In this document: in pieces, positions 2,739 through 20,093 of the stretch | How the letters are laid out: the number at the start of each line of letters is the position of its first letter | Position numbering within the stretch: the first letter of the stretch is position 1 | NCBI GenBank assembly: GCA_003142815.1 | Contig: PLNP01000044.1 | Location: 110,774-174,773, forward strand | Direction of reading: 5' to 3' | Origin: Rhodanobacteraceae bacterium | GTDB taxonomy: Bacteria > Pseudomonadota > Gammaproteobacteria > Xanthomonadales > Rhodanobacteraceae | Length of the DNA: 64,000 nt | Notes under the pieces: generated by a model | What the model saw: only the letters and a program-made list of their open reading frames with translations | What the model was told of the DNA's origin: nothing | Database searches by the model: none | Position numbers and translations under genes: made by a program

Positions 2739-3977
2739 TCAGGTAACTAGGCGTTTCGGCCTGCCATCCGTCTTCACCACCCGATGTACTTTCGCGCCCA
2801 GGCGAGCGCTGGTGGTGAGTATTCCCGGCCATCGCCTCACCAACGCAAGTAGCGCCGCCGTGGCGCGGGGGCGCATAGCGATATGAGCAAACAATGCGGC
2901 GACGCGGATGCGAGCCGTGAAGCTGCGTCGCCATCTTGCAGCGTAGTGACGCCCGACTTCGTCGGCGGCTCGACCTGCAACAAGCTCGGCGCGGCGCGGT
3001 ATGAGCAGCTCGCATAGCATCCAGGCTGACTGGATCGCCATGCTGATGCCCTCGCCAAGAATCGGGTGCGCCTCTCCGGCGGCATTGCCGATCGCGAACA
3101 CACCGTCGTACCGCCAGGGCGAACGAATGCCGGGCCGGATGGGCCCGACGGCGAGCCAGGGCGCGACCAGGCTGGCATCCGCCAGCGCGTGGCGTACACC
3201 CGCGCAGCTCAGCGCAACGTGCGCTTGAGCTGCCAGTGCTGCGGGCAACCCGACACTGCGCTCACGACAAGTTCGCAGCGCGTCGCGGCGAATGCAAAAC
3301 GCGAGCGTCAGATGGTCATGATCACCGAGCACCATTCCGCCATAACCTCCGGGAAACGCCAGCACAGGAAGCACACCCGGTGCGAGACACGCATCGCGAT
3401 AGGTGCCCTTGAACGCGAACAGATCAGATTCCCTGTGCGGAAGGTCATGGCGCTGTTCGGTAAACGGGTCGGTCTCCCATGAGCCATGCGCGGCGATCAG
3501 CACCGGCGCCGACAGCGTCGCTGTCGCATCGGCGGCGCGACCGACGAGGTGACAGGTTTTGCGCAGGTTATCAGAGTGCGAAACGTGCTTGACCGTCCAA
3601 GGCTGCCAGACATCCGCGCTGCTGGCAGCGGCGCGCTGCAAGAGTAGGGTGTCGAGATGTTCGCGCCCCAGCACCCGGCCCCACGGATGCGACGGTTCAG
3701 CGAACGGGGGTAAATCGGCGATCAGCATTTCCTCACCGACGCACAGCCCGACACTGCGGAGTTCCGGCCCCGCCAGCGCATCGAACTGTAATCCAATGCC
3801 GAGCAAATCGAACAGTGCTAGATTCGTCGCCGCGATGCATTCTCCGCAGACCTTGCGACGAGGGAATGCATATTTTTCGATGACTGCGACGGACCAGCCG
3901 GCCTGCGCCAACAGGATCGCTGCGGTCGAACCCGCCGGTCCTCCACCGACAATGATCGCGTCGTAATTGGTTTTCAT
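2739..3977 (-). CDS. FAD-dependent oxidoreductase, geranylgeranyl-reductase/PHBH-like
   Basis: The product is 412 residues. It opens with an FAD-binding Rossmann motif (DAIIVGGGPAGSTAA, about residues 5-19), followed by a PHBH-type region, the second FAD motif around AIGNAAGEAHPILGEG and the helix SMAIQSAWML. The Met at 3977 is chosen because the motif begins five residues later; the longer frame adds an unrelated leader. It is the last gene of an operon with a methyltransferase (20 bp upstream) and a type III polyketide synthase. By analogy with phenolic-lipid clusters such as srsABC it probably hydroxylates or oxidises the polyketide ring; the substrate is inferred. Confidence 0.8.
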   Translation of the reverse strand: MKTNYDAIIVGGGPAGSTAAILLAQAGWSVAVIEKYAFPRRKVCGECIAATNLALFDLLGIGLQFDALAGPELRSVGLCVGEEMLIADLPPFAEPSHPWGRVLGREHLDTLLLQRAAASSADVWQPWTVKHVSHSDNLRKTCHLVGRAADATATLSAPVLIAAHGSWETDPFTEQRHDLPHRESDLFAFKGTYRDACLAPGVLPVLAFPGGYGGMVLGDHDHLTLAFCIRRDALRTCRERSVGLPAALAAQAHVALSCAGVRHALADASLVAPWLAVGPIRPGIRSPWRYDGVFAIGNAAGEAHPILGEGISMAIQSAWMLCELLIPRRAELVAGRAADEVGRHYAARWRRSFTARIRVAALFAHIAMRPRATAALLALVRRWPGILTTSARLGAKVHRVVKTDGRPKRLVT

Positions 3978-3997
3978 TTTTTGGTGATCGATTTCTT

Positions 3998-4702
3998 TCA
4001 AACGTGTTTCGCGAGGGCTTGGAAGCGATGGCTGAACAGGCCGGCTGGAGCCTCCCGCAAACTCCAGGCACTCGGTTGCGGCCATAATGCCGAGAGTTCC
4101 TGAGCGCTGAAACCGGCATGTACACTCACCACCGCGTCATGCCGTGTGACCTCGTTGCAGCCGATCACGCCGAGCAACCGGCTAAACGTCAGTGCGAGCC
4201 GTGAGCGTCGCGGTTCGCAACATAGGAACGCACTCGCTCGCGCCGCGATTCCGTTCAGCAGAGCGCGTAATCGCTCCCCTTCAAAATGGTGCACGAACAG
4301 ATTGGCGATGATCACGGGTACAGCCCCGGACGCAGGCTGAGCAAGCCAGTCGAACGCGTCGGCACGAATGACTTCCACGTTCCAGCCGAGCGCGCGGTAA
4401 TCTGCCAGCGTCTGCGCATTGACCACCGGCTGCACATCCAGCAATTCAAGGTTGACCTGCGGCCAGCGTCGTGCGTGATGACGGGCGAGTTGCAACAGCG
4501 TCTGTCCGTCCCCGGCGCCCAATTCCACGAGCCGAATCGCGTTCGAACCATGCAGGATCTTGTCGAGTGGTCCGCGGATCAGTGACTGTGTCGCCATCAA
4601 TCGATTGATCCGGTGTAGATCACTGCGCGACCCGATGGCACGCGGATCGTCAGGCGCGAGTGTGTCCAGCAATTCGGCATGCACCTGCCGCGGCAGACTC
4701 AT
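3998..4702 (-). CDS. Class I SAM-dependent methyltransferase of the polyketide operon
   Basis: The product is 234 residues. Motif I of class I methyltransferases is visible as LVELGAGDGQTLLQLA and the acidic post-motif as LELLDVQP; VIIANLFVHHFEG fits motif IV. Start 4702 (MSLPRQVHAE) is preferred because gagagag lies just upstream on the coding strand; an alternative start at 4762 would overlap the upstream gene by 23 bp. Lying between a type III polyketide synthase and a flavoprotein, it most likely O- or C-methylates the polyketide product, an inference from operon context. Confidence 0.8.
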   Translation of the reverse strand: MSLPRQVHAELLDTLAPDDPRAIGSRSDLHRINRLMATQSLIRGPLDKILHGSNAIRLVELGAGDGQTLLQLARHHARRWPQVNLELLDVQPVVNAQTLADYRALGWNVEVIRADAFDWLAQPASGAVPVIIANLFVHHFEGERLRALLNGIAARASAFLCCEPRRSRLALTFSRLLGVIGCNEVTRHDAVVSVHAGFSAQELSALWPQPSAWSLREAPAGLFSHRFQALAKHV

Positions 4703-4739
4703 GAATCGCTCTCTCGTCGAGAATCTGGATCGCGCAGGA

Positions 4740-5798
4740 TCATTCGACGTCCAGCAGTGCACCGTGGCTGCTGAATCCCGCGCCGAACGAAGCCAGCCAC
4801 CAGCGGCCGCCGGGAGCTTTTTCGGTCAGCGCCATCTGCAACACAAAGTATACGAAAGCGCTACTGAGATTGCCGTATTCGCGCAGCACCGCGGCGCTGC
4901 ACCGTAGATCCTCGGTCGTCAAGCCAATCCGGTCGCTCAAGGCCGCCAATACGTCACGCCCGCCGGCGTGCCAAATCCAGCCCGTGATGTCCGATTGGCA
5001 CATTCCCTCTGCGGCGAGCACCATCTCGAGCACCCGTTGCGCATGTGTGGCGGCGATCTTTGGTACGGCAAGGGTGAGGACATTGCGCAGCAGCCCTTCG
5101 CGCTGCTCGAACCGCAGCGCGTCGCGCTCGGTCGGGCTGATAAGCGACGCCGCGGTCCTCCAGAGGATTCTGCGCTTGTCTTGTTGCGGCTGCACAGACA
5201 ACACCGCCGCGCCTGCTCCGTCGCCGAAGAGGCAAGCACTGATCAGCACGCCGGGGTCGTTATCCAGGTACATTGCGGCGCTGCAAACCTCGACGCAAAT
5301 CGATAGCACCCGAGCACAACGACCGGACGCGAGCAACGCATCGGCCATGCGCAAATTTGGAAGCGCGGCGCCGCAACCTTGTCCAACGAGATCCAGTGCC
5401 TGGACATCCGTGCGTAGTCCGAGCGCTTCGCTCACGTAACTGGTAAGTCCCGGACAAAGATAGCCAGTACACGTGCTTATGATGACGCTGTCGATTTCAG
5501 CCGCGAGAATGTCGGCATCGGCCAGCGCACGCTTGGCAGCGCATGTGGCCAATGCGGGCGCGTTGGCGAGGAAGCGCGTGTGAAGTGTATCGGGATCGAT
5601 CGCAAAAACTTCCTGTAACGAATCCACCGATAGTCGGCGCGCCTCAATGCCGTTGTCGTGTTGCAGCACCCTCTCGGCAATCATGCGCGCCCTGCGATCG
5701 AGCCTCTCAAACCAGGGCGAGGTCTGGAAAGCTTTCCAACAATCCGGCTTGGTGTAGCGCCGCTCGGGACACGCCGTTCCGAGGCCCACAATATACAT
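4740..5798 (-). CDS. Type III polyketide synthase (chalcone/stilbene synthase family)
   Basis: A 352-residue homodimeric ketosynthase-type enzyme that condenses malonyl-CoA units onto an acyl-CoA starter. The catalytic triad is intact: Cys142 in DLVGQGCGAALPN, His277 in IWHAGGRDVL and Asn310 in REYGNLSSAF, and the C-terminal loop FGAGFSSHGALL is present. The start has a good ribosome site (aaggagct). It is the first gene of a three-gene operon with a methyltransferase and an FAD oxidoreductase, which suggests alkylresorcinol, alkylpyrone or similar phenolic-lipid synthesis. Product identity cannot be read from the sequence. Confidence 0.9.
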   Translation of the reverse strand: MYIVGLGTACPERRYTKPDCWKAFQTSPWFERLDRRARMIAERVLQHDNGIEARRLSVDSLQEVFAIDPDTLHTRFLANAPALATCAAKRALADADILAAEIDSVIISTCTGYLCPGLTSYVSEALGLRTDVQALDLVGQGCGAALPNLRMADALLASGRCARVLSICVEVCSAAMYLDNDPGVLISACLFGDGAGAAVLSVQPQQDKRRILWRTAASLISPTERDALRFEQREGLLRNVLTLAVPKIAATHAQRVLEMVLAAEGMCQSDITGWIWHAGGRDVLAALSDRIGLTTEDLRCSAAVLREYGNLSSAFVYFVLQMALTEKAPGGRWWLASFGAGFSSHGALLDVE

Positions 5799-6492: not shown

Positions 6493-6527
6493 TGATGTTT
6501 GACTTTTATATGAAACATCACTATATT
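6493..6527 (+). promoter_or_regulatory. Sigma-70 type promoter with overlapping palindromic operator
   Basis: A -35 box TTGACT (6499-6504) and a -10 box TATATT (6522-6527) are separated by 17 bp. A perfect 8-bp inverted repeat, TGATGTTT (6493-6500) and AAACATCA (6513-6520), overlaps the -35 and the spacer. The position immediately before an XRE-type regulator gene suggests autoregulation. Confidence 0.6.
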
Positions 6528-6559
6528 AGTTCCATATTAAAAAACAGATGTTAGATATC

Positions 6560-6841
6560 ATGATTACCGCGTCGCAGCTGCGCGCCGCCCGGGCACTGTT
6601 GAAACTGGATCAGCGGCAATTGGCCGCGCTCGCCGGTCTGTCCGTGCCGACCATCCAACGGATGGAAACCAGCGACGACGTGATCCGCGGCCAAGTCGAC
6701 TCGTTGATGAAAGTTGTCGGAGCGCTGGATGCCGCCGGCATCGAGCTGATCTACGACGACGCCGACAGTCTGCGCGGCGGACGGGGCGTGCGCTTGAAAC
6801 GCAGCGCGGCGAGCCCCGCAAGTCCGACTCAAGGCAAATAA
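6560..6841 (+). CDS. XRE-family transcriptional regulator
   Basis: A 93-residue protein with an N-terminal helix-turn-helix of the Cro/C1 type: QLRAARALLKLDQRQLAALAGLSVPTIQRME at about residues 5-35. The C-terminal part (ALDAAGIELIYDD) is typical of small single-domain XRE regulators. ATG 6560 is preferred over 6548 because the family usually begins MITxxQxRAAR. It has its own promoter with an inverted repeat and ends 33 bp before the hydrogenase-4-like operon in the same direction, so it may be co-transcribed with that operon and control it. Confidence 0.8.
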   Translation: MITASQLRAARALLKLDQRQLAALAGLSVPTIQRMETSDDVIRGQVDSLMKVVGALDAAGIELIYDDADSLRGGRGVRLKRSAASPASPTQGK

Positions 6842-6874
6842 AGGCGCCTGGATCGATAGCATGAAGGCGCTCAG

Positions 6875-8890
6875 ATGACGCCAGTTGCCGTGCTGCTCTG
6901 GGCTATCGCGGCCTTGCTGGGCACTGCCGTCATGGCGGTGGCGCTAAGCCGGGCGGCTGTGGCGACACAGCTGGTGTACAGCGCCTGCGCCGTCATCTGC
7001 GGTGTCGCGCTATTATTTCTCCTGGTGCATCTGGTCGGGCAGCCCGGATCAACGACGTCGCTGAGCCTGCCGCTCGGTTTGCCCTGGCTGGGCGCCCATT
7101 TTCGGCTCGACCCGCTGGCCACTTTCTTCCTGATTGTCGTAGACCTCGGCGGCGCTGCCGCCAGTGTCTACGGTCTGGGCTATGGCCGGCACGAGACGGC
7201 GCCGCATCGGGTGCTGCCATTTTTCGCGGCTTTTCTGGCCGGCATGAATCTGGTGGTGCTGGCTGACGACGCCTTCACCTTTCTGCTGTGCTGGGAGTTC
7301 ATGTCGCTGACCTCCTGGGCGCTGGTGATGACCCATCATCAGGACAAGGAAAACACCCGGGCCGGTTACATCTATCTGGTCATGGCCAGCTTCGGAACGC
7401 TGGCACTGCTGCTCGCGTTCGGTTTGCTGGCCGGTCCCGACGGCCACTACGGCTTTGCCGCCATCCGTGCCACCGAACACACGCCTGCCGTCGCCGGCCT
7501 GGTGCTGGCGCTGGCCCTGCTCGGCGCAGGCTCCAAGGCCGGCCTGGTGCCGCTCCACGTCTGGTTGCCGCTTGCCCATCCAGCTGCACCCAGCCACGTC
7601 TCGGCGCTGATGAGCGGGGTCATGACCAAGGTTGCGATCTACGGCTTTGTGCGCATTGTCTTTGACCTGCTCGGCCAACCCGCCTGGTGGTGGAGCCTGG
7701 TCGTGCTGTTCCTCGGCGGTATTTCCACCGTGCTGGGGGTGATTTACGCGCTGATGCAGCACGACTTGAAGCGCCTGCTCGCCTACCACACGGTAGAGAA
7801 CATCGGCATCATCTACATCGGCCTTGGGCTTGCACTCGCTTTTCAGACAAACGCGATGAACGGGGCGGCGGCGCTCGCGCTCGCCGCCGCGCTGTTTCAC
7901 GTCCTCAACCACTCGATCTTCAAGAGCCTGCTGTTTTTCGGCGCCGGCGCCGTGCTGACCGCCACCCACGAGCGGGACATGGAGCACCTGGGTGGTCTCA
8001 TCCACCGCATGCCGTATACCAGCTTCGCGTTTCTGGTCGGCTGTGTGGCGATCTCGGCGCTGCCGCCCTTGAATGGCTTCGTCTCGGAATGGCTGACCTT
8101 CCAGGCCATTCTGCAGAGCACGAACTTGCCGCAATGGAGTCTCAAGATCATGGTGCCGGCGGTCGGCGGTCTGCTCGCGCTGTCAGCGGCCCTCGCCGCC
8201 GCCTGTTTCGTCAAGGCGTTCGGTGTGACCTTCCTCGGCCGGCCACGGACGCCGGCGGCGGCGCAGGCTCAGGAAGTCGACCGCTTCTCGCTGGGGGCGA
8301 TGTTCATCTGCGCAGCCCTGTGCCTGCTCGCCGGCATTCTGCCGGGCTTGGTGATCGACGGGCTGGCACCGGTAACGCTTTCTCTGATCGGTGATCGTAT
8401 GCCGGTGCAGACGAGCATTCCATGGCTGTCGATCGTGCCGATCACCGCGGGCCGCAGTTCCTACAATGGTCTGCTGGTATTCGCGTTCATTGCGTTCTCG
8501 GCGTCACTCGCGGCCTACGTCATCCACCGCTTCGCCTCGCGCGCGCTGCGCCGGGCACCGGCCTGGGACTGCGGTTACCCGGACCTGAGCCCGGTGACGC
8601 AATATACGGCGAGCAGCTTCGCACAGCCCATTCGCCGCGTATTCGGCGACCTGGCGTTCCGCGTACGCGAAAAACTGGACATGCCGCCACCGGGGGATAT
8701 TCGACCCGCGCGCTTCATCGCCACGCTGCGTGACCGGATCTGGGACACGCTGTATATGCCCGTCGTTCGGGCCGTCAACTTTGGCGCCGACCATCTCAAT
8801 CGGCTCCAGTTCCTCACCATCCGGCGTTACTTGAACCTGGTTTTCCTTACGCTCATCACGTTGCTGTTGGTGCTTGCGATATGGCGGTGA
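6875..8890 (+). CDS. hyfB: Hydrogenase-4 component B-like, NuoL/MrpA-type antiporter subunit
   Basis: A 671-residue polytopic inner-membrane protein with about 14-16 hydrophobic helices and the proton-translocating core of NuoL/M/N (residues about 115-420, including LLVHxxGG-type helices, KAGLVPLHVWLPLAHPAAPS and the KSLLFFGAG segment). The PLHVWLP and HPAAPSHVSALMSG stretches place it with HyfB/HycC rather than true NuoL. The C-terminal tail (DCGYPDLSPVTQYTASSF) is characteristic of HyfB. It is the first of six tightly packed genes and overlaps the next by 10 bp. Confidence 0.9.
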   Translation: MTPVAVLLWAIAALLGTAVMAVALSRAAVATQLVYSACAVICGVALLFLLVHLVGQPGSTTSLSLPLGLPWLGAHFRLDPLATFFLIVVDLGGAAASVYGLGYGRHETAPHRVLPFFAAFLAGMNLVVLADDAFTFLLCWEFMSLTSWALVMTHHQDKENTRAGYIYLVMASFGTLALLLAFGLLAGPDGHYGFAAIRATEHTPAVAGLVLALALLGAGSKAGLVPLHVWLPLAHPAAPSHVSALMSGVMTKVAIYGFVRIVFDLLGQPAWWWSLVVLFLGGISTVLGVIYALMQHDLKRLLAYHTVENIGIIYIGLGLALAFQTNAMNGAAALALAAALFHVLNHSIFKSLLFFGAGAVLTATHERDMEHLGGLIHRMPYTSFAFLVGCVAISALPPLNGFVSEWLTFQAILQSTNLPQWSLKIMVPAVGGLLALSAALAAACFVKAFGVTFLGRPRTPAAAQAQEVDRFSLGAMFICAALCLLAGILPGLVIDGLAPVTLSLIGDRMPVQTSIPWLSIVPITAGRSSYNGLLVFAFIAFSASLAAYVIHRFASRALRRAPAWDCGYPDLSPVTQYTASSFAQPIRRVFGDLAFRVREKLDMPPPGDIRPARFIATLRDRIWDTLYMPVVRAVNFGADHLNRLQFLTIRRYLNLVFLTLITLLLVLAIWR

Positions 8891-9837
8891 TCCTCGATTT
8901 GTTGGTGCAGGGCGCGCAAATGGCCCTGGTACTGCTGCTCGCGCCGCTGTTGACGGGGCTGGTCCGCAAAACCAAGGCGCGCTTGTTACGCCGTCAGGGG
9001 GCGCCGATCGTGCAGCCATACCGGGATCTGCTGCGGCTGTTGCGCAAGGAGGTCGTGCTGGCCGAAAACGCCTCTTGGCTGTTTCGGGTCGCCCCGTATC
9101 TGATCTTCGCCTCGACCTGGGTCGCGGCCGCCCTGGTGCCCACCTTCGCCACCGGCCTGATGTTCAACTGGACAGCCGATCTGATCGCTATCATCGCGTT
9201 GCTGGGCAGCGCTCGCTTCTTCCTTGCGCTCTCAGGCATGGACATCGGCACCAGCTTCGGCGGAATCGGTTCCAGTCGGGAAGTGATGATCGCTTCGCTC
9301 GCCGAGCCGGCCATGCTGCTGATCGTGTTCACTGTGGCGCTGATTGCCGGATCGACCCAACTGTCGACGGTTTCTGCCTTCATGGCATCCCCGAGTGTGG
9401 GGTTGCGCATGTCGCTGGCGCTGGCGCTGGTCGCGCTGATCATGGTGGCGCTGGCAGAGAACGCTCGCATTCCCGTGGACAACCCGTCCTCCCACCTGGA
9501 GGTGACCATGGTGCATGAAGCCATGGTGCTCGAATACTCCGGTCGTCACCTGGCCATGATCGAGTTCGGCGGTTTCCTCAAGTTGCTGCTCTATGTGTCG
9601 CTCATCGCCAGTGTGTTCATGCCCTGGGGGATAGCCGATCACGCTGCCGGCCCGGTCGAATACGCGTTCGGCGCAATCGCTTATCTGATCAAGCTGGCGC
9701 TGGTCGGCGTGCTGCTGGCCGTGTTTGAGACTGCGATTGCAAAGATGCGGGTGTTTCGCGTTTCCGAGTTTCTGGGCGCCGCGCTCATGCTCGGCCTGCT
9801 CGGCACCCTGCTGTTGTTCGTCTCGAGGAGCCTGTAG
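8881..9837 (+). CDS. hyfC: Hydrogenase-4 component C-like, NuoH-type membrane subunit
   Basis: A 318-residue polytopic protein of the complex I subunit 1 (NuoH/HycD/HyfC) family, which anchors the peripheral arm to the membrane. The signature loop PYRDLLRLLRKE is at about residues 46-57, and ENARIPVDNPSSHLEVTMVHEAM, the conserved quinone-site-like loop, is near residues 196-218. It overlaps hyfB by 10 bp and the next gene by 1 bp. Confidence 0.9.
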   Translation: MAVILDLLVQGAQMALVLLLAPLLTGLVRKTKARLLRRQGAPIVQPYRDLLRLLRKEVVLAENASWLFRVAPYLIFASTWVAAALVPTFATGLMFNWTADLIAIIALLGSARFFLALSGMDIGTSFGGIGSSREVMIASLAEPAMLLIVFTVALIAGSTQLSTVSAFMASPSVGLRMSLALALVALIMVALAENARIPVDNPSSHLEVTMVHEAMVLEYSGRHLAMIEFGGFLKLLLYVSLIASVFMPWGIADHAAGPVEYAFGAIAYLIKLALVGVLLAVFETAIAKMRVFRVSEFLGAALMLGLLGTLLLFVSRSL

Positions 9838-10496
9838 TGGAGCGGATCATCTTCGACATCGCCCACTCGCTGGCCGGTGGCCTGGTGCTGGTCAGCTTCA
9901 TGATGCTCTATCAGGACCGGCTGCCCGCGCTGATCAATATTTTTGCCGTGCAGGCGGTACTGCTCGCGCTGTCGGTTGCCTGGCAGGCCTATATGCAGGA
10001 CGCCCCGCATCTGTACATCACCGCCGGCATTGCCCTGGTGTTCAAAGCCATGATCATCCCGGTCGCCCTGCATCGCATTATCAAGCAGCTGGGGATCCAC
10101 CGCGAGATCGAGCCCGTCGTCGGCATCGGCTCGACCATGTTCATCGGCATCGGGCTGGTCGCGCTGTCGATGGTAGTGATGCTGCGGGTGACCGGACACG
10201 CCGCTCCCGTGGCGCGCGAGGACCTGGCGTTTGCCCTGTCGGTGATCCTGCTGGGAATGTTGATGATGGTGACGCGACGTAACGCGGTCGGTCAGGTGAT
10301 CGGATTCATGTCGCTTGAGAACGGTCTGGTGCTGGCGGCAACCGGCGCCAAGGGCATGCCACTGGTGGTCGAAATCAGCATCGCCTTCTCAGTGCTGATC
10401 GCGTTCATCGTGATCGGGATATTCCTGTTCCGCATCCGCGAGCGCTTCGATACGGTCGATTTGAGTGCGCTCGACAGCCATCGCGGGGGGCAATAG
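9837..10496 (+). CDS. hyfE: Hydrogenase-4 component E-like membrane subunit (NuoK-related)
   Basis: A 219-residue protein with six or seven hydrophobic helices, matching HyfE, whose C-terminal half is NuoK-like (NAVGQVIGFMSLENGLVLAAT at about residues 145-165). Translation starts at a GTG whose first base is the last base of the hyfC stop codon. It belongs to the membrane arm of the predicted complex. Confidence 0.88.
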   Translation: MERIIFDIAHSLAGGLVLVSFMMLYQDRLPALINIFAVQAVLLALSVAWQAYMQDAPHLYITAGIALVFKAMIIPVALHRIIKQLGIHREIEPVVGIGSTMFIGIGLVALSMVVMLRVTGHAAPVAREDLAFALSVILLGMLMMVTRRNAVGQVIGFMSLENGLVLAATGAKGMPLVVEISIAFSVLIAFIVIGIFLFRIRERFDTVDLSALDSHRGGQ

Positions 10497-11947
10497 TGGG
10501 CGTGCTGAACTTCAACCCCGTCTCGACTCTGTTGCTGATCCCGCTGCTGACGGCGCCACTGCTGGCGCTGCTGCCAGGCTACAAAATCTCGGCCCGGATC
10601 AACGTGCTGGCTTCGCTGGCGACCTTGCTGGCGGCATCGTCGCTGTTCTTCCTTGATCGTCCCGCGCCGGGGAATTACCTGCTGGTCGACGATCTGAACA
10701 TCGTTTTCATCGTGCTCAATACGTTCGTCGCGTTCACGACCAGCGTATTCAGCGCCAGCTACATCGGACACGAGCTGGAAACCGGCAGGCTGCCGTTATC
10801 GTACCTGCGCTTCTACCATGCGATGTACCAGGTGTTGCTGTTCGCCATGAACCTGGCCTTCGTCGCCAACAACCTCGGCCTGATGTGGGTAGGTGTGGAA
10901 GTGGCCACGCTGAGCACGGTGGTGATGGTCGGCATTTACCGCACCCCCGAGGCATTGGAGGCAGCATGGAAATATTTCATCCTCGGCAGCGTCGGCATCG
11001 CGCTGGCGCTGTTCGGCACCATTTTGGTTTACATGGCCGCACAACCGGTGGTCGGCGAAGGCAACAACGCGATGCTGTGGACGGTGTTGATCGCGCATGT
11101 TGCTGCTTTCGATCCGGCACTGCTGAACCTCGCTTTCGTATTTTTGCTCCTCGGCTACGGCACCAAGATGGGTCTGGCGCCGCTGCACGCCTGGCTGCCG
11201 GATGCCCATGCCGAGGGTCCGACGCCGATCTCGGCGGTATTATCTGGGCTGCTGCTTAATGTCGCCCTGTATGCCCTGCTGCGCTACAAGCTGCTGATGG
11301 CGGCCAACCCGGGCGCGCTGGCGCCCGGACCGCTGATGATGATCATGGGCCTGGTCTCGTTGGTGTTCGCGGCGTTCATGCTCTATCGCCGTCGCGACAT
11401 CAAGCGGCTGTTCGCCTATTCGTCGATCGAGCACATGGGCATCATCACCTTCGCCTTCGGCATGGGCGGGCCGCTGGCCAACTTCGCCGGCCTGCTGCAC
11501 ATGGTCATGCACAGCCTGACCAAGTCGGCCATCTTTTTTTCCGTCGGCCACATTGCGCAGATCAAGGGCACCCAGAAAATCGCCGAAATTCGTGGCTTGA
11601 CCCAGACCCATCCGCTGCTTGGCTGGGGTCTGGTCGTCGGCGTGCTCGCCATCGCCGGCATGCCGCCTCTGGGCATCTTCATGAGCGAATTCCTGGTGGT
11701 CAGCTCGACCATCGCCCACGCACCGTGGCTTGCCGTCCCGCTGGTTGTCGGCCTGCTGGTCGCCTTCGGTGCGTTGCTGCTGCGCCTGACTGGCCTGGCG
11801 TTTGGCGAGCCCAGCGGCAGCACCGCGGCGGTCAAGGCCTCCTATCTACCGCTTTATGCCCATCTTGCCCTGGTGCTGATAGGCGGGGTGTATCTGCCGC
11901 CGGCGCTGGTTTCGTGGTTCCAGCACGTGGCTGCTTTGCTTGGATGA
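10496..11947 (+). CDS. hyfF: Hydrogenase-4 component F-like, NuoM/N-type antiporter subunit
   Basis: A 483-residue membrane protein with a proton antiporter core. GTKMGLAPLHAWLPDAHAEGPTPISAVLSG (about residues 220-250) is the family hallmark with the channel lysine, and RRRDIKRLFAYSSIEHMGI follows. It starts at a GTG overlapping the hyfE stop by one base. With hyfB it supplies two antiporter-like modules, so the complex probably couples electron transfer to ion translocation. Confidence 0.9.
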   Translation: MGVLNFNPVSTLLLIPLLTAPLLALLPGYKISARINVLASLATLLAASSLFFLDRPAPGNYLLVDDLNIVFIVLNTFVAFTTSVFSASYIGHELETGRLPLSYLRFYHAMYQVLLFAMNLAFVANNLGLMWVGVEVATLSTVVMVGIYRTPEALEAAWKYFILGSVGIALALFGTILVYMAAQPVVGEGNNAMLWTVLIAHVAAFDPALLNLAFVFLLLGYGTKMGLAPLHAWLPDAHAEGPTPISAVLSGLLLNVALYALLRYKLLMAANPGALAPGPLMMIMGLVSLVFAAFMLYRRRDIKRLFAYSSIEHMGIITFAFGMGGPLANFAGLLHMVMHSLTKSAIFFSVGHIAQIKGTQKIAEIRGLTQTHPLLGWGLVVGVLAIAGMPPLGIFMSEFLVVSSTIAHAPWLAVPLVVGLLVAFGALLLRLTGLAFGEPSGSTAAVKASYLPLYAHLALVLIGGVYLPPALVSWFQHVAALLG

Positions 11948-11966
11948 GCCAGGAAACGTTACCGAT

Positions 11967-13481
11967 ATGTCGATTCCGCTGAGTCAGATCGGGCAGGAGC
12001 GTCGGGTGGACTGCCACCGGCCATGGCCGCGGGCGATCGTCGATACCCGGACCTGGAATCTGGCCGCTTCGCAGCTTGCTCTGGGCGAGCTGTCGCTGGT
12101 GGGCCTGTGGGGCGAGGCCGATTGCGTGCACATGGCGCTGCACGATCCGGCAGAAGCAAGCTTCGCCGTGCTCAGTCTGCCATGTCCGGACCAGCGCTAC
12201 CCTTCGATCGGTCTGCGCCACCCCGTGGCCTTGCGGCTGGAACGGGCGTTGGTCGATCTGTTCGGATTGACCCCGGAAGGGCTGCCGGATACCCGGCCCT
12301 GGCTGGATCATGGTCGCTGGCCGGTGCGACATCCGCTGGCCGAACGTTCTGAAGCGGATGCGGCTGTCCTGTCTTATCCCTTCCTCAGCGCCGAAGGCGA
12401 CAGCCTGCATCAGATTCCTATCGGTCCGGTGCACGCCGGCATCATCGAGCCGGGGCACTTCCGGATCACCGCTAGCGGCGAAACCGTTGTGCGTCTGGAA
12501 GAGCGGCTGGGGTATGCCCACAAGGGCGTGGAGAGCCTGATGGCCGGCGCCGATGTCACCCGCGCCGGCCAGCTGGCCGGCCGAGTTAGCGGCGACAGCA
12601 CGGTGGCCTATGCCGTGGCGTTCGCCCAGGCGGCCGAGGCCGCTACGGGCTGCTTGCCGCCCGCCCGGGCGCAGTGGCTGCGGGCATTGATGGCCGAGCT
12701 CGAGCGTATCGGCAATCATCTCGGCGACATTGGCGCGATCTGCAACGATGCCGGTTTCGCCCTGATGCAGGCGCACTGCGCGGTGCTGCGGGAACGGGTG
12801 CTGCGGGCAGCGGATACGGCCTTTCGCCATCGCCAGATGCGCGATTGCGTCGTGCCCGGCGGTGTTGCGGTCGATTTGAACGCCGAAGGGCTCGCGGCCG
12901 TCCAGGCGTTGATCGAAGAAATACGGCGACGCTTCCCGGCCCTGATCGAGCTCTACGACAACACCGCTTCACTGCAGGACCGCATGGTTGGCACCGGCAT
13001 TCTCGATAGCGGTCTGGCGCGGTCATTCGGTGCCGGTGGCTATGTCGGTCGAGCCTCCGGGCGGAATTTTGATGCCCGCCGTCTGCCGGGCTACGCGCCT
13101 TACGAGGGTTTGAGCTTTGTAGTTCCGGTACGGCAATCCGGTGATGTCAACGACCGGGTCTGGATCCGCATCCGGGAGGTCGAGCAGAGCCTTTCCCTGA
13201 TCGAGCAGGTTCTTTCGGGTCTGCCGCAGGGTCCTTTGCTCGCCGCGCTGCCGGTCATGTCCGGAGTGTGCGAGGGCGTGGCGCTGGTCGAGGGCTTCCG
13301 CGGCGATGTGCTGGTCTGGCTCAGGCTCGATGTCGGCGGCCGGGTGGCGCGCTGTCACCTGCGCGATCCGTCCTGGTTCCAGTGGCCATTGCTGGAAGTG
13401 GCCATCGACGGCAACATCGTCGCCGACTTCCCGTTGTGCAACAAATCGTTCAACTGCTCCTATTCCGGCCACGACCTGTAA
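11967..13481 (+). CDS. hyfG: Hydrogenase-4 large-subunit-like protein lacking all Ni-binding cysteines
   Basis: A 504-residue protein: an N-terminal NuoC/30-kDa-like part (to about residue 150) fused to a NuoD/49-kDa-like part, as in HyfG/HycE. Active group 4 hydrogenases carry CGIC after RV and DPCxxC at the C-terminus. Here the first site reads LAGRVSGDSTVAY (about residues 203-215) and the C-terminus reads NCSYSGHDL, so no Cys pair remains at either site. ATG 11967 is used; an in-frame TTG at 11940 would overlap hyfF. The protein should bind no NiFe centre, as in complex I NuoD and Ehr-type complexes. Confidence 0.88.
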   Translation: MSIPLSQIGQERRVDCHRPWPRAIVDTRTWNLAASQLALGELSLVGLWGEADCVHMALHDPAEASFAVLSLPCPDQRYPSIGLRHPVALRLERALVDLFGLTPEGLPDTRPWLDHGRWPVRHPLAERSEADAAVLSYPFLSAEGDSLHQIPIGPVHAGIIEPGHFRITASGETVVRLEERLGYAHKGVESLMAGADVTRAGQLAGRVSGDSTVAYAVAFAQAAEAATGCLPPARAQWLRALMAELERIGNHLGDIGAICNDAGFALMQAHCAVLRERVLRAADTAFRHRQMRDCVVPGGVAVDLNAEGLAAVQALIEEIRRRFPALIELYDNTASLQDRMVGTGILDSGLARSFGAGGYVGRASGRNFDARRLPGYAPYEGLSFVVPVRQSGDVNDRVWIRIREVEQSLSLIEQVLSGLPQGPLLAALPVMSGVCEGVALVEGFRGDVLVWLRLDVGGRVARCHLRDPSWFQWPLLEVAIDGNIVADFPLCNKSFNCSYSGHDL

Positions 13482-13492
13482 CGGGATCGCCC

Positions 13493-14029
13493 ATGCGCAA
13501 ACTGCTGTTCCAGAGCCTGATCCAATCGCCGCTGACCGAGCCGCCGCCGCCCGATGGCGCGGTGGCCGAGTTGGCGGCGGCGCTGGCCGGAAGCGCCCGG
13601 CGACGTCTGGGACGGAGCCTGGCGATCCGCATGATCGATGCCGGTTCCTGCAACGGCTGCGAACTGGAAATCAATGCACTCGGCAATGCGTTCTACGACC
13701 TTGAGCGCTTCGGCCTCCATTTCGTGCCCTCGCCGCGTCATGCCGACGTGCTGCTGATCACCGGCCCGGTCACCTGCAACATGCGCGAAGCGCTGCAGCG
13801 GACCTACCACGCCACCCCGGACCCCAAGTGGGTGGTGGCGGTCGGCGAGTGTGCGCGGAACGGCGGATGTTTCGCCGGCAGTTACGCGGTTGTGGGCGGT
13901 GTGGCCGAGGTGGTTCCGGTGGATCTGTACATCCCCGGTTGTCCGCCCAGCCCCACCGCGCTGCTGACAGGACTCCTGGCGCTGATGCAGGCCCAGCAGA
14001 TGGCTACAAACCGGGTTGTCCTTGGATGA
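13493..14029 (+). CDS. hyfI: Hydrogenase-4 small-subunit-like iron-sulfur protein
   Basis: A 178-residue NuoB/HyfI-family protein. The cysteines of the proximal 4Fe-4S cluster are conserved: C53 and C56 in SCNGCELE, C120 in VGECARNGGCF and C150 in IPGCPPSP. The iron-sulfur relay therefore looks intact although the partner large subunit has no NiFe site. It begins 11 bp after hyfG and is the last gene of the operon. No ferredoxin-like HyfA or HyfH subunit and no HyfD is present. Confidence 0.88.
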   Translation: MRKLLFQSLIQSPLTEPPPPDGAVAELAAALAGSARRRLGRSLAIRMIDAGSCNGCELEINALGNAFYDLERFGLHFVPSPRHADVLLITGPVTCNMREALQRTYHATPDPKWVVAVGECARNGGCFAGSYAVVGGVAEVVPVDLYIPGCPPSPTALLTGLLALMQAQQMATNRVVLG

Positions 14030-14582: not shown

Positions 14583-16145
14583 CTACGGGCTCCGTGACTC
14601 CGGCTCACCGCATGCTGTGTCGATGCGCAGTTCCTCGGCCAATACGCCGAGGAGTTCAGCCGGGTTCACCGGTTTCTCGACAAAGCGGATGCGCTGCAGC
14701 GGGGGCAGTTCGTCGCGGTTGATTGATCCGCTCTCCGCGATCATCACGACCGGCCCACGGAACTTGTGTTCGATCAGCGTCGTTGCTGTGCGAACGCCCG
14801 TCATGAGATTCATATCGGCTTCCATGACCACGACGGCCGGAAGGCCGTGCGCGTTGATGGTTTGCAGTGCGGCGGCGCCGCTCTGCGCGGTCAATACCTG
14901 ATAACCGTGCGACTCGATGGTGTCGTGCAGCAGCGACAACGTGCTGGCCTCCTCGATGACGATCAGTACGACCTCACCGCGGCCTATGGGCAATGAATGC
15001 GAAGACGATTCCTGCTTCTGTGTGCCCTGCATCGGCAAATACAACGCAAAGGTCGTGCCGCTACCCACAGTGCTGGCTACCCGAATGAAGCCTTTGTGGT
15101 TCGTCACTATGCGTCGGCACGACAACAAACCAAGCCCGGTCCCGCGTTCCTTGGTGGTGAAGAAGGGCTTGAACAGGTTCGAGCGGACTTCGTCCGACAT
15201 GCCGACGCCGCTGTCCTTGATCGCGATCTTGAGATAGCGACCTGGTGCTGCCATTTCTCCCGCGGAAAAGAAGGAATGATCGATGTCGGTGAGCATTGCC
15301 TCCAGTCGCAGCTCGCCGCCATCAGGCATCGCCTGCAGCGCGTTCAGGCAGAGATTCAGAAGGCATTGTTGGAGTTCGGTGTAGTTGCCATCGATTTCAA
15401 TCGCGGCGTCTGGGAGCTCGGCGATGAGAGTCACCGCGCGCGGCATGGAGCCCCGCAACAGCATCGCGAGCGCCTCGATCAGTGCGCTCACCTTCACGCG
15501 CTCCTTCGCCGCACGCGATCCGCGCGCGAACGAGAGCATCGAGGCGACGATATCGAGCCCTCGCTGCGTGCAGTCGACGATCAGCCGGGCCGCCTTTCGC
15601 ACTTCGTCGCGTGAATCGTCGGCAAATATGGACGCGCCCATCGAGATGGGTTGCAAGATGTTGCGTAGATCGTGGCTGAGGCCCGATGCGAGCAACGCCA
15701 GGCTTTCGTAGCGCTGCACGCGAAGGAGCTCTTGCTCGGCACGCTCGCGAGCATCCCGCTCCGCCGATTCCGCGAGCGCCCGGCGTACCGCCGAGGCAAG
15801 ACGCGCGAGATTATCCTTCAGGACATAGTCTGTCGCACCCCCGCGCAATGCCTCGACTGCGGCTTCCTCGCCCATCGTCCCCGACACAAACATGAAAGGG
15901 ATGCGCGGTTTCAGACGTCGGGCGATTTCCAGCGCTCGGTAACCGGAAAAGTCCGGCATGCTCAGATCAGACACGATCAGATCGGGTGCAAAATTCTCGA
16001 GCGCGTCGACGAACGCGAACTCGTTCTCGACACGCCGCGACGTGATCGAGAGTCCATCGAGCAACAGCTCGTCAAGGACCAGCTCGGCGTCGAGCTCGCT
16101 GTCCTCGACGAGCAGGATTCGGACAGGCTCGTTCGCGTCGACCAT
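14583..16145 (-). CDS. Hybrid response regulator / histidine kinase (REC-HisKA-HATPase-REC)
   Basis: A soluble 520-residue protein. An N-terminal receiver (residues 8-125, acceptor Asp60 in LIVSDLSMPDFSG) is followed by a dimerisation helix with His158 (SGLSHDLRN), an ATPase domain (N box near 262-270, DSGVGMSDE at 311, GTGLGLLSC at 335) and a C-terminal receiver-like domain (about 390-510). In the last domain the acceptor position is Glu442 (VVVMEADMN) instead of Asp, so it may be locked or phosphorylation-independent. It follows a response-regulator gene by one base and closes a three-gene signalling operon. No membrane segment is seen. Confidence 0.85.
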   Translation of the reverse strand: MVDANEPVRILLVEDSELDAELVLDELLLDGLSITSRRVENEFAFVDALENFAPDLIVSDLSMPDFSGYRALEIARRLKPRIPFMFVSGTMGEEAAVEALRGGATDYVLKDNLARLASAVRRALAESAERDARERAEQELLRVQRYESLALLASGLSHDLRNILQPISMGASIFADDSRDEVRKAARLIVDCTQRGLDIVASMLSFARGSRAAKERVKVSALIEALAMLLRGSMPRAVTLIAELPDAAIEIDGNYTELQQCLLNLCLNALQAMPDGGELRLEAMLTDIDHSFFSAGEMAAPGRYLKIAIKDSGVGMSDEVRSNLFKPFFTTKERGTGLGLLSCRRIVTNHKGFIRVASTVGSGTTFALYLPMQGTQKQESSSHSLPIGRGEVVLIVIEEASTLSLLHDTIESHGYQVLTAQSGAAALQTINAHGLPAVVVMEADMNLMTGVRTATTLIEHKFRGPVVMIAESGSINRDELPPLQRIRFVEKPVNPAELLGVLAEELRIDTACGEPESRSP

Positions 16146-16146
16146 A

Positions 16147-16590
16147 TCAGTTGTCCGGACGCGCCTCGTTCATCACGGCCCAGAACTGGCCGAGTGCCTG
16201 GACGGCCTCGAAGAACTGCTCGGCATCGACCGGCTTGACCACATACGCATTCACGCCGAGATCCCAGCTGGCCGCGAGATCGCGTTCCTCGCGAGACGAC
16301 GACAGGATGACGACCGGAATGTGCTTCGTGTCTTCTTTGGAGCGTATCTCGCGCAACACCTCGATGCCGTCCATACGTGGCATCTTGATGTCCAGCAGGA
16401 CGACGGTCGGGTTTCCGTCGTTGCGATCGGCGTATGCGCCCGCGCGATGAAGGTAGTCGAGTGCTTCGATGCCGTCTTCCACGTGGACGATCGGATTGGC
16501 GAGGTGTGCCTCGCGCAAAGCGTCCATCGTCATTTCGGCGTCGGCAAGGTCGTCCTCGACGAGCAAGATGGTGCGGATTTCCTTGATCAT
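16147..16590 (-). CDS. Single-domain response regulator (Rcp1-like)
   Basis: A 147-residue stand-alone receiver: acidic pair D13/D14 in LLVEDDLAD, phosphoacceptor Asp67 in VVLLDIKMPRMDG, Ser/Thr near VVILSSS and Lys in VVKPVDAEQF. There is no output domain, as in Rcp1-type regulators paired with phytochrome-like kinases. Start 16590 is used because a start at 16608 would overlap the upstream kinase. It sits between a membrane sensor kinase and a hybrid kinase and probably relays phosphate between them. Confidence 0.88.
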   Translation of the reverse strand: MIKEIRTILLVEDDLADAEMTMDALREAHLANPIVHVEDGIEALDYLHRAGAYADRNDGNPTVVLLDIKMPRMDGIEVLREIRSKEDTKHIPVVILSSSREERDLAASWDLGVNAYVVKPVDAEQFFEAVQALGQFWAVMNEARPDN

Positions 16591-16600
16591 GCATCTGTCC

Positions 16601-18379
16601 TCAATCATTGATGCTGTGGCGCGGCAGGGAGAAGAAGAAGGTCGAGCCTTGCTCGGGGACACCCTCGGCCCAGGTGCGGCCGCCATGTCGGGCGATAATG
16701 CGGCGGACAGTCGCCAGGCCGATGCCGGTGCCGGAAAACGCCGACGCCTTGTGCAGACGCTGGAATACGCCGAACAACTTGTCGACGTAGCGCATGTCGA
16801 ATCCAGCGCCGTTGTCGCGAATCCAGAAAACGCGCTCTTCCCCAATGTCGTCGTTGCCGATTTCGATGACCGCGTTCTCCGTTCCCGTCGTATACTTTAT
16901 CGCATTGTCCAGGAGATTCTGCCATGCGAGCTGCATCATGGAGGCATCCGCGACGACGACGGGCAATGGAGCCAGGCGCCACGTGATAGCGCGATCCTCG
17001 ACGTTCGACATCAAGACCGCGCGAACCTCCTCGACCAGAGACTGCATGTCGACGGGTTGAAGGCGAAGCGCGTGCTTACCCAGTCGCGAATAGATCAGGA
17101 GGTCCTCGATCAGGGCGGACATGCGCCGCGCTGATTCGGCGATAACCTCACAATAGTGCTTCACCTTGTCGTCGACGGCGTCGCCGAGTCCGGCGCGCAG
17201 CTTTTCTGAAAAACCCGCGATGTGTCTCAGTGGTGCACGCAGGTCGTGCGACACCGAGTACGAAAACGCTTCGAGCTCGCGGTTGACTTCGGTGACCTGT
17301 GCGATCTTGCCGGCGAGTTGCCGGTTGAGTTCGAGGATCTGCTCCTCGGAGCGCTTGCGGGCTGTAAGATCGCTGACAGTCAATAGCGCCACCGTGTCCG
17401 ATGTCTCCGGCAGGATCATCGGACGGGCATTGACGATCACGTCGCGTTCCACATCGCCCGCGGTCATCTGCAAGGTTTCGTAGTCCCACAGTTCCCGCTG
17501 CGTTATCGACACATCGCGCAACTTTTGCTGCAGCGCGGCATCTTCGGCCCATCCTTGGATGTCTGTAAGTGCACCTTGAATCGGTCGCGTCGCGCCGTAG
17601 AAATCTGCGAAGGCGCGGTTCGCCTGAAGAAGCGTTAGATCCGAGGCGATGACCGCAATCGGTTCCCGCACGGTTTCCACGATAAGACGTGCCCGACCCA
17701 CTGCGCGACGCGCCTCGGTTTCTGCTGCGAAACGCCGACGCAGTTCGCGCTCGGATGCCCAAATGATGCCACTTAGTAAAAAAATCTGTGCCAAGGTTGT
17801 GGTCAGCGTTACCCACCAGCTGTCACGCACGTGCTGATCGGCACTTTCCCGTCGCGCCTGCATGAGACGATCCTCGCGAGCGAGGATCGCATTCACAATA
17901 TCGTCAACGGGAAAGTGCGCTACCGCATTCTCCACTTCGGCAGCAGCCGGTACGGAATCGACCTGATCGCGCATCGCGTGGTTGAACGCCGCGAGGCGAT
18001 CGCCGATGCGCGCGCGAAGCATCCCGATACGTTCCTGTTGTTCGGCACTGTCAATGGTCAGCTTCCGCAATGCGTCCAGCAGGGCGCTCTGTCGTTTGCT
18101 TGCATCCGCGTAACGAGCGGCCGCCGCTCCGGAAGCGCTGTTCAGTCGTGCAGCGAGCGCAGCCGCCTGCATCTTATTGAGCGTAGAGTTCAATTCAAAG
18201 ACGGTCGCGCGCACTTCGTGGGTATGCGATACCGCACGCATCGCCTCCACGGTGTCGTCAAAAACCTTCTGGCGCACGAGATACCCGGCGCCGACGATCA
18301 CGACCAGGCTCGTCAAGAGCACCAGCAAGCGACCGAACGTTTTCGGAAAGACTATGAAACGCAAATAGAACCCCTTCAC
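16601..18379 (-). CDS. Membrane sensor histidine kinase (CHASE3-like, PAS, HisKA, HATPase)
   Basis: About 592 residues from a GTG at 18379 (VKGFYLRFIVFPKTF). A transmembrane helix at about residues 14-34, a helical periplasmic sensor of CHASE3-like character to about 205, a second transmembrane helix, a PAS-like domain, and a DHp domain with His378 (SYSVSHDLRAPL). The ATPase domain (WQNLLDNAIKYT, DNGAGFD, SGTGIGLATV) resembles those of phytochrome-associated kinases. The start is uncertain: a longer frame to 18649 exists but its extra residues look untranslated. It heads the signalling operon. Confidence 0.82.
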   Translation of the reverse strand: MKGFYLRFIVFPKTFGRLLVLLTSLVVIVGAGYLVRQKVFDDTVEAMRAVSHTHEVRATVFELNSTLNKMQAAALAARLNSASGAAAARYADASKRQSALLDALRKLTIDSAEQQERIGMLRARIGDRLAAFNHAMRDQVDSVPAAAEVENAVAHFPVDDIVNAILAREDRLMQARRESADQHVRDSWWVTLTTTLAQIFLLSGIIWASERELRRRFAAETEARRAVGRARLIVETVREPIAVIASDLTLLQANRAFADFYGATRPIQGALTDIQGWAEDAALQQKLRDVSITQRELWDYETLQMTAGDVERDVIVNARPMILPETSDTVALLTVSDLTARKRSEEQILELNRQLAGKIAQVTEVNRELEAFSYSVSHDLRAPLRHIAGFSEKLRAGLGDAVDDKVKHYCEVIAESARRMSALIEDLLIYSRLGKHALRLQPVDMQSLVEEVRAVLMSNVEDRAITWRLAPLPVVVADASMMQLAWQNLLDNAIKYTTGTENAVIEIGNDDIGEERVFWIRDNGAGFDMRYVDKLFGVFQRLHKASAFSGTGIGLATVRRIIARHGGRTWAEGVPEQGSTFFFSLPRHSIND

Positions 18380-18776
18380 GGCGGTGTCAAAACGAATCCT
18401 TCTTACAATTGTACCGCACCGTCCAGTCACCGAGTTCGATCGCGTATGAAACGTTACCGACGACGCTCGAAGGAAGAGGGCCGCCAAACATCTTCGGGCG
18501 GCGGCCAACGCGCACACCGACAACAAGCATGAAAATTGCTGCACAAACTGCTCATTCGGCACACGGACATGGCGCTCATGCGAGGTACCACCCAGATAAA
18601 GTATCTTGTGTGCTGATGCCCTCAGCCGACCACGCAAGCGTGAGCGCAAGCGGGTGAGCTATGGGATTCCGAACGTAAGCGCGCATGAAGTTTCGTTGTT
18701 CATCCTGCGGTTCAGCGTGGCAGCTTAGGGTCTTCCGCTCACGAGTGAGCGCATGGAAACGCAGAGGCCATTTCCG

Positions 18777-20093
18777 ATGATCCCTCGTCCTTCCGTGGTT
18801 CTCTTCGCGTTCAGCGCCGTTTACTTGAGCGCCTGTTCGAGCAACGCGACCTTGCCTGCAACGGCAGGGTTTGGGCCGACTCCGACCTTGCCGGCGCCAA
18901 AAGAATCGCGGCTGCCAACCGTGAACACCGCGCCCGCGAAAGGCTGGTCGGATGGGCAGAAACCGATTGCCGCGACAGGCCTCTCAGTAAACGCCTTTGC
19001 CACGGATCTTGATCATCCTCGGTGGCTTTACGTACTCCCCAATGGAGATGTGTTGGTAGCCGAGACCGATGCGCCGCCGAAACCCGACGATGCGAAAGGC
19101 ATCAAAGGCCGGGTGATGAAGCGCATCATGAAACATGCAGGCTCGGGGCTACCCAGCGCAAATCGCATCACCCTGCTTCGCGATACGGATGGCGACGGGG
19201 TAGCTGAGACGAGGACCATTTTCATCAAGGGGCTGAACTCACCGTTCGGCATGGCGCTCGTCGGAAACACGCTCTATGTGGCGAACACGGATTCGATTCA
19301 GCGGTTTCCCTACAAGGATGGTGAAAGCGAAATTTCCGAATCAGGGGAGAAGGTCGTCGATCTCCCGGCCGGGGCTATCAACCATCACTGGACGAAGAAC
19401 GTTGTGGCGAGTGCGGACGGATCGCATTTGTATGTAACTGTCGGTTCCAACAGCAACATCGCCGAGAACGGCATCGCGCAGGAAGAGGGACGTGCCGCGA
19501 TCCTGGATGTCGATCCGAAAGCGGGTCAGTCGCAACTCTTCGCGTCGGGCCTTCGAAATCCGAACGGCATGGCTTGGCAACCGCAGAGCGGGGCACTATG
19601 GATAGCCGTAAACGAACGCGATGAATTGGGCGGTGATCTCGTTCCGGATTACATGACCTCCGTCAAGGAAGGAGCCTTTTATGGGTGGCCCTACAGCTAC
19701 TATGGGCAGCACGTCGATGAACGGGTGCAGCCTCAACGACCCGATTTGGTGAAGACCGCCATTGTTCCGGACTACGCGTTGGGTTCACACACCGCATCGC
19801 TAGGTCTTGTTTTCTACACAGGCACTACGCTCCCTGCACACTACCAGGGAGGCGCATTTATCGGTCAGCATGGCTCCTGGAACCGAAGACCGGCGGTGGG
19901 CTACAAGGTGATCTTTGTGCCTTTCGTCCACGGTCAACCGAACGGCGGCCCGGAGGATGTCCTGACAGGATTTCTAGACAGGGATGGCAATGCCCGTGGT
20001 CGCCCCGTGGGCGTGGCGATAAGCAAAACCGGTGATCTGCTGGTGGCAGACGATGTCGGAAACAGGATCTGGCGCGTGACCGCAGCACGCTGA
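18777..20093 (+). CDS. Sorbosone dehydrogenase-like beta-propeller lipoprotein
   Basis: A 438-residue secreted protein of the glucose/sorbosone dehydrogenase (PQQ-type six-bladed beta-propeller) family. A lipoprotein signal ends at LSAC (Cys20). Family stretches include [73 protein letters not shown] and HGSWNRRP. The start at 18777 is preferred to 18753 because agagg lies 9 bases upstream and the signal peptide begins there. It probably oxidises a sugar or aldehyde with PQQ in the periplasm; the substrate is unknown and no PQQ genes are nearby. Confidence 0.82.

Follow-up and report, generated by a model that had tools for sequence, protein, structure and literature searches.

We analysed a stretch of 64,000 nucleotides (hereafter the window) from Rhodanobacteraceae bacterium, covering positions 110,774 to 174,773 of the forward strand of contig PLNP01000044.1 (assembly GCA_003142815.1), which holds a real and complete operon of seven genes at window positions 6548–14029: an XRE-family regulator followed by hyfB, C, E, F, G and I. 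A preliminary description of the window had proposed at this site a hydrogenase-4-like complex lacking a NiFe site and led by an XRE regulator. The gene coordinates agree with that description, the Pfam and NCBIfam matches are given in Table 1, and the gene content together with the lost nickel ligands supports the proposed type of complex. Genes B and C, C and E, and E and F overlap, while short gaps separate F from G and G from I if ATG starts are used. No HyfA, HyfD, HyfH or HyfJ is encoded in the operon, nor is a ferredoxin-like (NuoI-type) subunit, and the locus holds neither an NADH module nor NuoI. The earlier statement that maturation genes are absent is correct for the operon but not for the genome, which carries hypA, B, C, D and E (found with E. 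coli queries) and hypF (by reading). As detailed below, the operon belongs to Hyq, a family that is known but obscure, and we therefore refer to its genes as hyqRBCEFGI.

The dominant feature of the operon is the absence of nickel ligands from its large subunit. Of 82 HyqG rows aligned, 80 were usable, the remaining two holding three residues only and being uninformative. RxSGDS is present in 80/80 usable rows and so is NKSFN(C/G)SY(S/T)G, while the C-terminus reads CNKSFNCSYSGHDL in 63 of them and differs slightly in the remaining 17. Because the pattern is constant across all usable rows, the RVSGDS and CSYSG of the window, previously taken as the loss of both nickel-ligand pairs, are not a matter of chance. 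Aligned to HyfG, HycE and NuoCD of E. coli, without gaps in either motif, HyqG has S214, S217, S504 and G507 at the places of the four nickel-ligand cysteines, and a hidden Markov model (HMM) alignment to HycE (7z0s) gives the same placements; none of the four cysteines is recovered elsewhere by either alignment. We rejected the idea that nickel ligands lie elsewhere in HyqG, since the alignments run without gaps through both motifs and there are no replacement residues, and likewise C503 as a third ligand, which pairs with the Pro of DPCxxC. C265 and C497 occur in 80/80 rows and C503 in 79/80; the first of these is common to HyqG and HyfG/HycE, and the other two are not found in HyfG/HycE. 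HyqG ends (..SGHDL) at the column after which HycE continues for 32 residues, and is without a C-terminal extension; the 32-residue piece of HycE is presumably the part that is cleaved after nickel insertion. HyqI, read from the ATG at 13493, has its four cysteines at the positions given earlier (C53, C56, C120 and C150), and all four are conserved in the 81-row family alignment, where they are numbered C58, C61, C125 and C155.

The gene order, the cysteines with their C-terminal spacing and the start of HyqR match those published for Hyq of Azorhizobium caulinodans ORS571, and it is on these grounds that we assign the operon to this family. Judged against the text of the papers, the window and ORS571 agree in all seven genes and in their order. 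HyqG of ORS571 has no CxxC pair and has cysteines at positions 258, 491 and 497 of 504, corresponding to C265, C497 and C503 of 510 in the window, such that in both proteins the last two are 6 apart and the final one is 7 from the end. Both HyqI proteins have four cysteines, arranged as CxxC + C + C, for one [4Fe-4S] cluster, and HyqR starts with MIT in both, as read for ORS571 from a published primer. The window differs from ORS571 in that its host is a gammaproteobacterium without nifH, and in that a sigma70-like sequence and no sigma54 pattern lies upstream.

Hyq shares subunits B, C, E, F, G and I with hydrogenase-4 and formate hydrogenlyase (E. coli HyfG, HycE); among solved structures, HycE comes closest to HyqG in sequence (259 bits). 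By fold, HycE (Z 36.6, rmsd, i.e. root mean square deviation, 2.9, 464 aligned) is level with or about 1 above the complex I chains, a ranking that leaves the two unseparated. In contrast to Hyf and Hyc, HyqG has neither the four cysteines of RxCGxC and DPCxxC nor the extension, and in a tree of 65 rows and 352 columns HyfG and HycE fall outside a single clade that unites Hyq with a sister group (99/97, branch 4.77). This tree leaves out L136, which has no GPxH motif, and the duplicate or partial loci L093, L094, L106–L110 and L124. With the core of respiratory complex I, Hyq shares the fold, the subunit plan and one N2-like cluster; in contrast to complex I, neither an NADH module nor NuoI is encoded at the locus, and the quinone-site His and Tyr of NuoD are not kept. 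MBS/Mbx complexes contain a ferredoxin-like (NuoI-type) subunit, which is absent from the hyq operon. The preliminary description had likened the complex to the Ehr type, with donor and acceptor not established. This holds for the loss of nickel ligands, since Ehr complexes, as described in PMC6349859, are group 4-like, carry antiporter modules and have no Ni/Fe ligands, although the likeness is one of description only; the precise family is Hyq, for which phenotypes, H2 data and NifA control have been published.

Table 1. Features of the hyq locus (window coordinates)
Feature	Position	Strand	Remarks
Possible HyqR operator, inverted half-sites GATGTTT (6494–6500) and AAACATC (6513–6519)	6494..6519	.	
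Sigma70-like promoter TTGACT-17-TATATT	6499..6527	+	10/12 match, spacing 17
hyqR, XRE-family regulator (HTH_31, HTH_3)	6548..6841	+	Pfam/NCBIfam; probable start ATG 6560 (MIT..)
hyqB (hyfB), antiporter-like membrane subunit	6875..8890	+	Hydrogenase 4 subunit B, 906 bits, above cut-off
hyqC (hyfC), NuoH-type membrane subunit	8881..9837	+	Pfam/NCBIfam
hyqE (hyfE), HyfE-type membrane subunit	9837..10496	+	92 bits, below cut-off of 136; tblastn in relatives
hyqF (hyfF), antiporter-like membrane subunit	10496..11947	+	877 bits, above cut-off
hyqG (hyfG), fused NuoC/NuoD-type large subunit without Ni ligands	11940 (TTG) or 11967 (ATG)..13481	+	
RVSGDS replacing RxCGxC	12582..12599	+	HyqG residues 212–217 counted from 11949
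CNKSFNCSYSGHDL, HyqG C-terminus, replacing DPCxxC and extension	13437..13478	+	
hyqI (hyfI), NuoB-type small subunit, four conserved cluster cysteines	13493..14029	+	

Relatives were collected by scanning genome contigs, which confirmed at least 573 relatives among at least 590 matched stretches, and the best 80 were kept. We scored nifH with TIGR01287, in place of PF00142, which was too broad (it matched 14/14 controls). Since some of the genomes in the censuses are drafts, a few absences may be gaps, and the co-occurrence statistics throughout ignore kinship. Among the best 80, the nearest relatives of the window's HyqG are those of two Lysobacterales metagenome-assembled genomes (MAGs), at 77% (clade 100/100), which have no nifH at cut-off and no hypD; the host genome itself (G000; 3.22 Mb, 99.99% complete) has only weak matches to nifH and none at the family cut-off. 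We tested 52 genomes, 51 of them distinct, namely those of 50 of the 80 loci together with G000 and G032 (the genome of locus L007), and found nifH above cut-off in 21, hypD in 20, and neither gene in 23 of the 51 distinct genomes, Neorhizobium petrolearium DSM 26482 and Sphingopyxis sp. GW247-27LB being examples of such carriers. A census of the 297 genomes in the order of G176, a Bradyrhizobium MAG (Hyphomicrobiales; HyqG at E <= 1e-80, some partial), gave HyqG in 40, nifH in 52 and hypD in 75, with neither nifH nor hypD in 15 of the 40 carriers. Across 397 Pseudomonadota genomes, HyqG at 52% identity or more occurs in 25 and a relative at 40–50% in 31 (one partial), a further 11 having matches at 31–32%, the level of Hyf/Hyc; both nifH and hypD are missing from 13 of the 25 Hyq carriers and from 17 of the 31 carriers of the relative. 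In the window's own order Hyq proper is found in 2/150 genomes (G000 and G032), and a relative at 44–47% in four (G016, G032, G096 and G136). The tie to nitrogen fixation, expressed in PMC2930871 as a general absence of hyq from non-diazotrophs, is not general.

The more distant relatives form a supported sister clade (100/99), whose position relative to Hyq is unsupported. All nine sister rows that we read (four from the window's order and five of the 31 in the Pseudomonadota set) retain the GD of the first motif and 6/9 the exact RxSGDS, while L097 has Cys at the first position; no CxxC occurs in any of the nine. The three cysteines described as conserved in Hyq are all absent in 7/9 of these rows, and all three together are found in none. 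Of the 25 Hyq rows from Pseudomonadota, 24 have RxSGDS and one RISADS, and L136 diverges at the C-terminus. On three plasmids (CP050084.1, CP053209.2 and NZ_CP072868.1) the HyqG match is annotated as "hydrogenase expression protein HypE" or "nickel-dependent hydrogenase large subunit", with which the sequence disagrees. SulP-like transporters (by reading) lie near hyq in L048, L049, L059, L063, L081 and L085, five downstream and one upstream, and another lies upstream of one sister operon, L108.

Our preferred reading, to which we give a probability of roughly 0.45, is that Hyq is a reversible oxidoreductase, linked to the proton-motive force, between a low-potential carrier docking at HyqI and the quinone pool, and that HyqR regulates its own operon. 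HyqBCEF would constitute an ion-translocating membrane arm, and HyqG with HyqI a small peripheral arm that carries a single [4Fe-4S] cluster and lacks a NiFe centre. Because the operon encodes no ferredoxin-like subunit, the HyqI cluster should be open to a partner, and a soluble low-potential carrier may thus dock at the exposed cluster, in the position that NuoI occupies in complex I and HyfA/HyfH in Hyf. Electrons would be exchanged reversibly with quinones, and this exchange would be coupled to the proton-motive force by ion pumping. In favour of such a role are the structural genes, which are Hyf- and complex I-like in style and kept as a unit in relatives, the argument for a quinone cavity put forward for ORS571 in PMC3357923, and the carriers without nifH and hypD in the three censuses above (23/51, 15/40 and 13/25).

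Further support comes from a reduced genome, G653 (0.9 Mb, 100% complete according to the completeness tool, 33–35% GC in the four stretches measured), which retains hyqB–I at 47–68% identity, divided between two contig ends (G653 loci: L142, L147, L168 and L184–L185), together with fumarate reductase, as complex I decays. Searches of this genome used E. coli queries, which may miss divergent genes, and covered contigs up to C47 except some contig-end kilobases; the ndh, pta and ydbK queries were partial and cbb3 oxidase was not queried. Within this scope, complex I is represented by decayed nuoB, nuoC and nuoD fragments alone, and no cyoABC, cydAB, gltA, sucABCD, aceEF, lpd, pflB, ydbK, ndh, fldA, ackA or pta was found, nor were nifH, hypD and hyqR. 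Fumarate reductase (FrdB above cut-off), ATP synthase subunits, GlpC (above cut-off) and an NfnAB-type fusion are present, as is a set of four genes that score best in NCBIfam against families of FixA/B/C/X type, each below its cut-off; uronate-catabolism genes (by reading) adjoin hyq. Hyq is the sole complex I-like pump seen in G653, which is perhaps a symbiont. The set of genes fits the feeding of quinone for fumarate respiration, equally well from low-potential electrons or from host H2. This retention also speaks against a fourth possibility, that Hyq is mainly an ion transporter or an assembly relic and performs no redox turnover itself: the two antiporter-like subunits would suit it, but the HyqI cluster cysteines and the HyqG site are strictly conserved and the operon is kept intact in a 0.9-Mb genome, and we regard it as very improbable.

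Several observations weigh against a carrier:quinone oxidoreductase. Two quinone-site residues of NuoCD, the second His of its HPxxH and the Tyr of its RxxY, align with I166 and G215 of HyqG, so a complex I-like quinone site is unsupported by the residues; judged from the alignments, HyqG appears to have kept neither the active site of hydrogenases nor the quinone site of complex I. In the AlphaFold model of HyqG (predicted template modelling score 0.84), the active-site segments, residues 140–191 and 476–510, fall below 50 in the predicted local distance difference test. The FixABCX-like set of G653 suggested a general supplier of ferredoxin, and this candidate failed outside diazotrophs: FixC occurs in 35/297 genomes and in 16/40 with hyq, 15 of those 16 being nif+, and is thus found in 1/18 hyq+ nif− genomes and in 2/227 that have neither. 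Among the same 297 genomes, hyq occurs in 22/52 nif+ against 18/245 nif− (Fisher p 4e-9) and in 23/75 hyp+ against 17/222 hyp− (p 3e-6); divided by both, in 20/37 nif+hyp+ genomes compared with 2/15 with nif only, 3/38 with hyp only and 15/207 with neither. Moreover, hyp genes adjoin hyq in one clade: in L099, L100 and L101, hypF, hypD and hypE lie directly 5' of hyqB in the same orientation, no hyqR having been found in between, and L099 and L101 have all of hypABFCDE. Five further genomes show the same hypD–hyqG spacing by coordinates, making 8/40 carriers in all, although the adjacency may be a single event, since the three loci read form one clade (98/92). A role in H2 metabolism accounts more simply for this enrichment and adjacency, and published mutants link Hyq to H2 (PMC2650096 and PMC3357923).

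Those mutants come from A. caulinodans, in which hyqRBCEFGI was reported in 2009–2012 as a NifA-controlled "endo-hydrogenase" (PMC2650096, PMC2930871, PMC3357923). PMC2650096 reports NifA-dependent induction of hyq, and doubling times of diazotrophic cultures that are 21% slower upon its deletion. According to PMC2930871, recycling of H2 persists after loss of the hup/hyp operon, and the hyq and hyp sets are unlinked in the species of that paper's own table. In PMC3357923, evolution of H2 at low O2 is ascribed to Hyq. At 20 μM O2, Δhyq lifts the loss of H2 from 12 to 175, and in a hupSL-deleted background from 16 to 540; below 1 μM O2 the output, in pmol per 1e9 cells per min, is 61,000 for ΔhupSL, 14,000 for the double mutant and 56,600 for nifK ΔhupSL (PMC3357923). 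The same paper points out that HyqG has neither of the two CxxC pairs and has three conserved cysteines, and it regards a NiFe site as uncertain, if not unlikely. Hydrogenase activity had been named in the preliminary description as an observation that would count against a complex of this type; the ORS571 mutant data are credited with both uptake and evolution of H2, yet the NiFe site is called uncertain (PMC3357923).

These data could be taken to mean that Hyq is a NiFe-free hydrogenase. As an H2:quinone oxidoreductase, it would recycle H2 in nitrogen fixers and produce it at very low O2. The effects of Δhyq at both O2 levels, the recycling said to outlast the hup/hyp operon, the concentration of hyq in nif+hyp+ genomes and the hyp genes 5' of hyq would all be expected in this case, and one could also speculate that G653, with Hyq and fumarate reductase, lives on host H2. 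We nevertheless consider it unlikely: HyqG has no nickel ligand or C-terminal extension, the three cysteines offered as conserved are absent from most sister rows (7/9), and over half of the phylum-wide Hyq carriers are without both nifH and hypD. In addition, PMC3357923 states that a cell-free assay was lacking at publication, and the table given there has no nifK ΔhupSL Δhyq strain. The wider claim, that Hyq is a hydrogenase independent of both a NiFe centre and Hyp maturation in the 25/397 Pseudomonadota genomes, with a NiFe-less sister clade in 31 more, appears to us decidedly doubtful.

As a potential alternative to both, Hyq may couple ion pumping to the reduction or oxidation of some other small molecule in a pocket of HyqG, by analogy with MBS. 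MBS acts on sulfane sulfur, and the related MBS and MBH chains match the HyqG profile. In place of the NiFe centre HyqG has a polar site, R212, S214, D216 and S217 with N502, S504, Y505 and G507, in 80/80 rows, as expected for a ligand pocket that has been kept. However, MBS scores below HycE (113 versus 259 bits), and no conserved neighbour across the 80 loci suggests a substrate, hyqR being the only one among the neighbour clusters listed that spans lineages. A role of this kind is, in our view, unlikely.

Autoregulation by HyqR, which forms part of the preferred reading, would act through the half-sites GATGTTT and AAACATC. The preliminary description had called both promoter and operator clear. 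The promoter does match at 10/12 positions, but shuffled sequences would yield 1.4 such sites where the scanned region has one, and the match by itself therefore carries no weight as evidence. As for the operator, the half-sites are present in the window, 12 bp apart, and a related tight palindrome, GATGT..ACATC, lies upstream in 16/75 relatives (0.2 expected in mononucleotide shuffles), all of them in Mesorhizobium or Bradyrhizobium; the window does not match this tight form. hyqR lies just 5' of hyqB in 58/79 loci; in 13/79 it is downstream in the opposite orientation, and in 8/79 it was not found, several of these being at contig ends (these counts and those for sigma54 and NifA patterns include L005 and L069, the same operon twice). 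With rough patterns, we found no sigma54 or NifA pattern upstream of the window operon; in the upstream regions of relatives, sigma54-like sequences occur in 2/80 and NifA-box-like TGT-N10-ACA in 8/80, and never both. Control by NifA and sigma54 is described for ORS571 alone and does not define the family.

Upstream of the operon, on the opposite strand (window 2739–5798), a type III polyketide synthase-like gene, a methyltransferase-like open reading frame (ORF; by reading) and an FAD-binding oxidoreductase lie in tandem. Elsewhere in the host genome, contig C52 encodes a canonical NiFe hydrogenase, composed of a Tat-type small subunit and a large subunit in which RICGVC and DPCLAC are intact. 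This locus (L111, positions 15000–34900), by reading an Isp-type group 1 hydrogenase, has an HdrB/HdrC-like Fe-S ORF between the large- and small-subunit genes, a NiCoT-like transporter and the hyp genes. The window also contains a type I restriction-modification operon (30753–39804) in the order HsdM, KwaA, KwaB, HsdS, PDC-M05A candidate, HsdR, with Kiwa inside it (KwaA 32779–33336, 294 bits; KwaB 33333–34259, 454 bits); a defence-like row of an AAA ATPase, a subtilase and a Swt1-like HEPN protein (42434–47354); and Ku and LigD, adjacent on opposite strands near an Nramp transporter (25008–28740), for bacterial end joining.

The claim that a complex without nickel ligands uses and produces H2 has been standing since 2012 and comes, as far as the open-access literature shows, from one group; an open-access search by locus tag returned nothing. 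The present analysis extends the family well past nitrogen-fixing alphaproteobacteria and places its conserved core in a Ser/Asp motif rather than in three cysteines. Were Hyq indeed a NiFe-free, Hyp-independent hydrogenase, it would represent a new way to handle H2. The family thus presents either new H2 chemistry or a common energy-converting complex that was wrongly assigned, with databases listing it as hydrogenase-4 or "nickel-dependent hydrogenase", and the carriers without nifH and hypD offer a clean place for testing what Hyq does.

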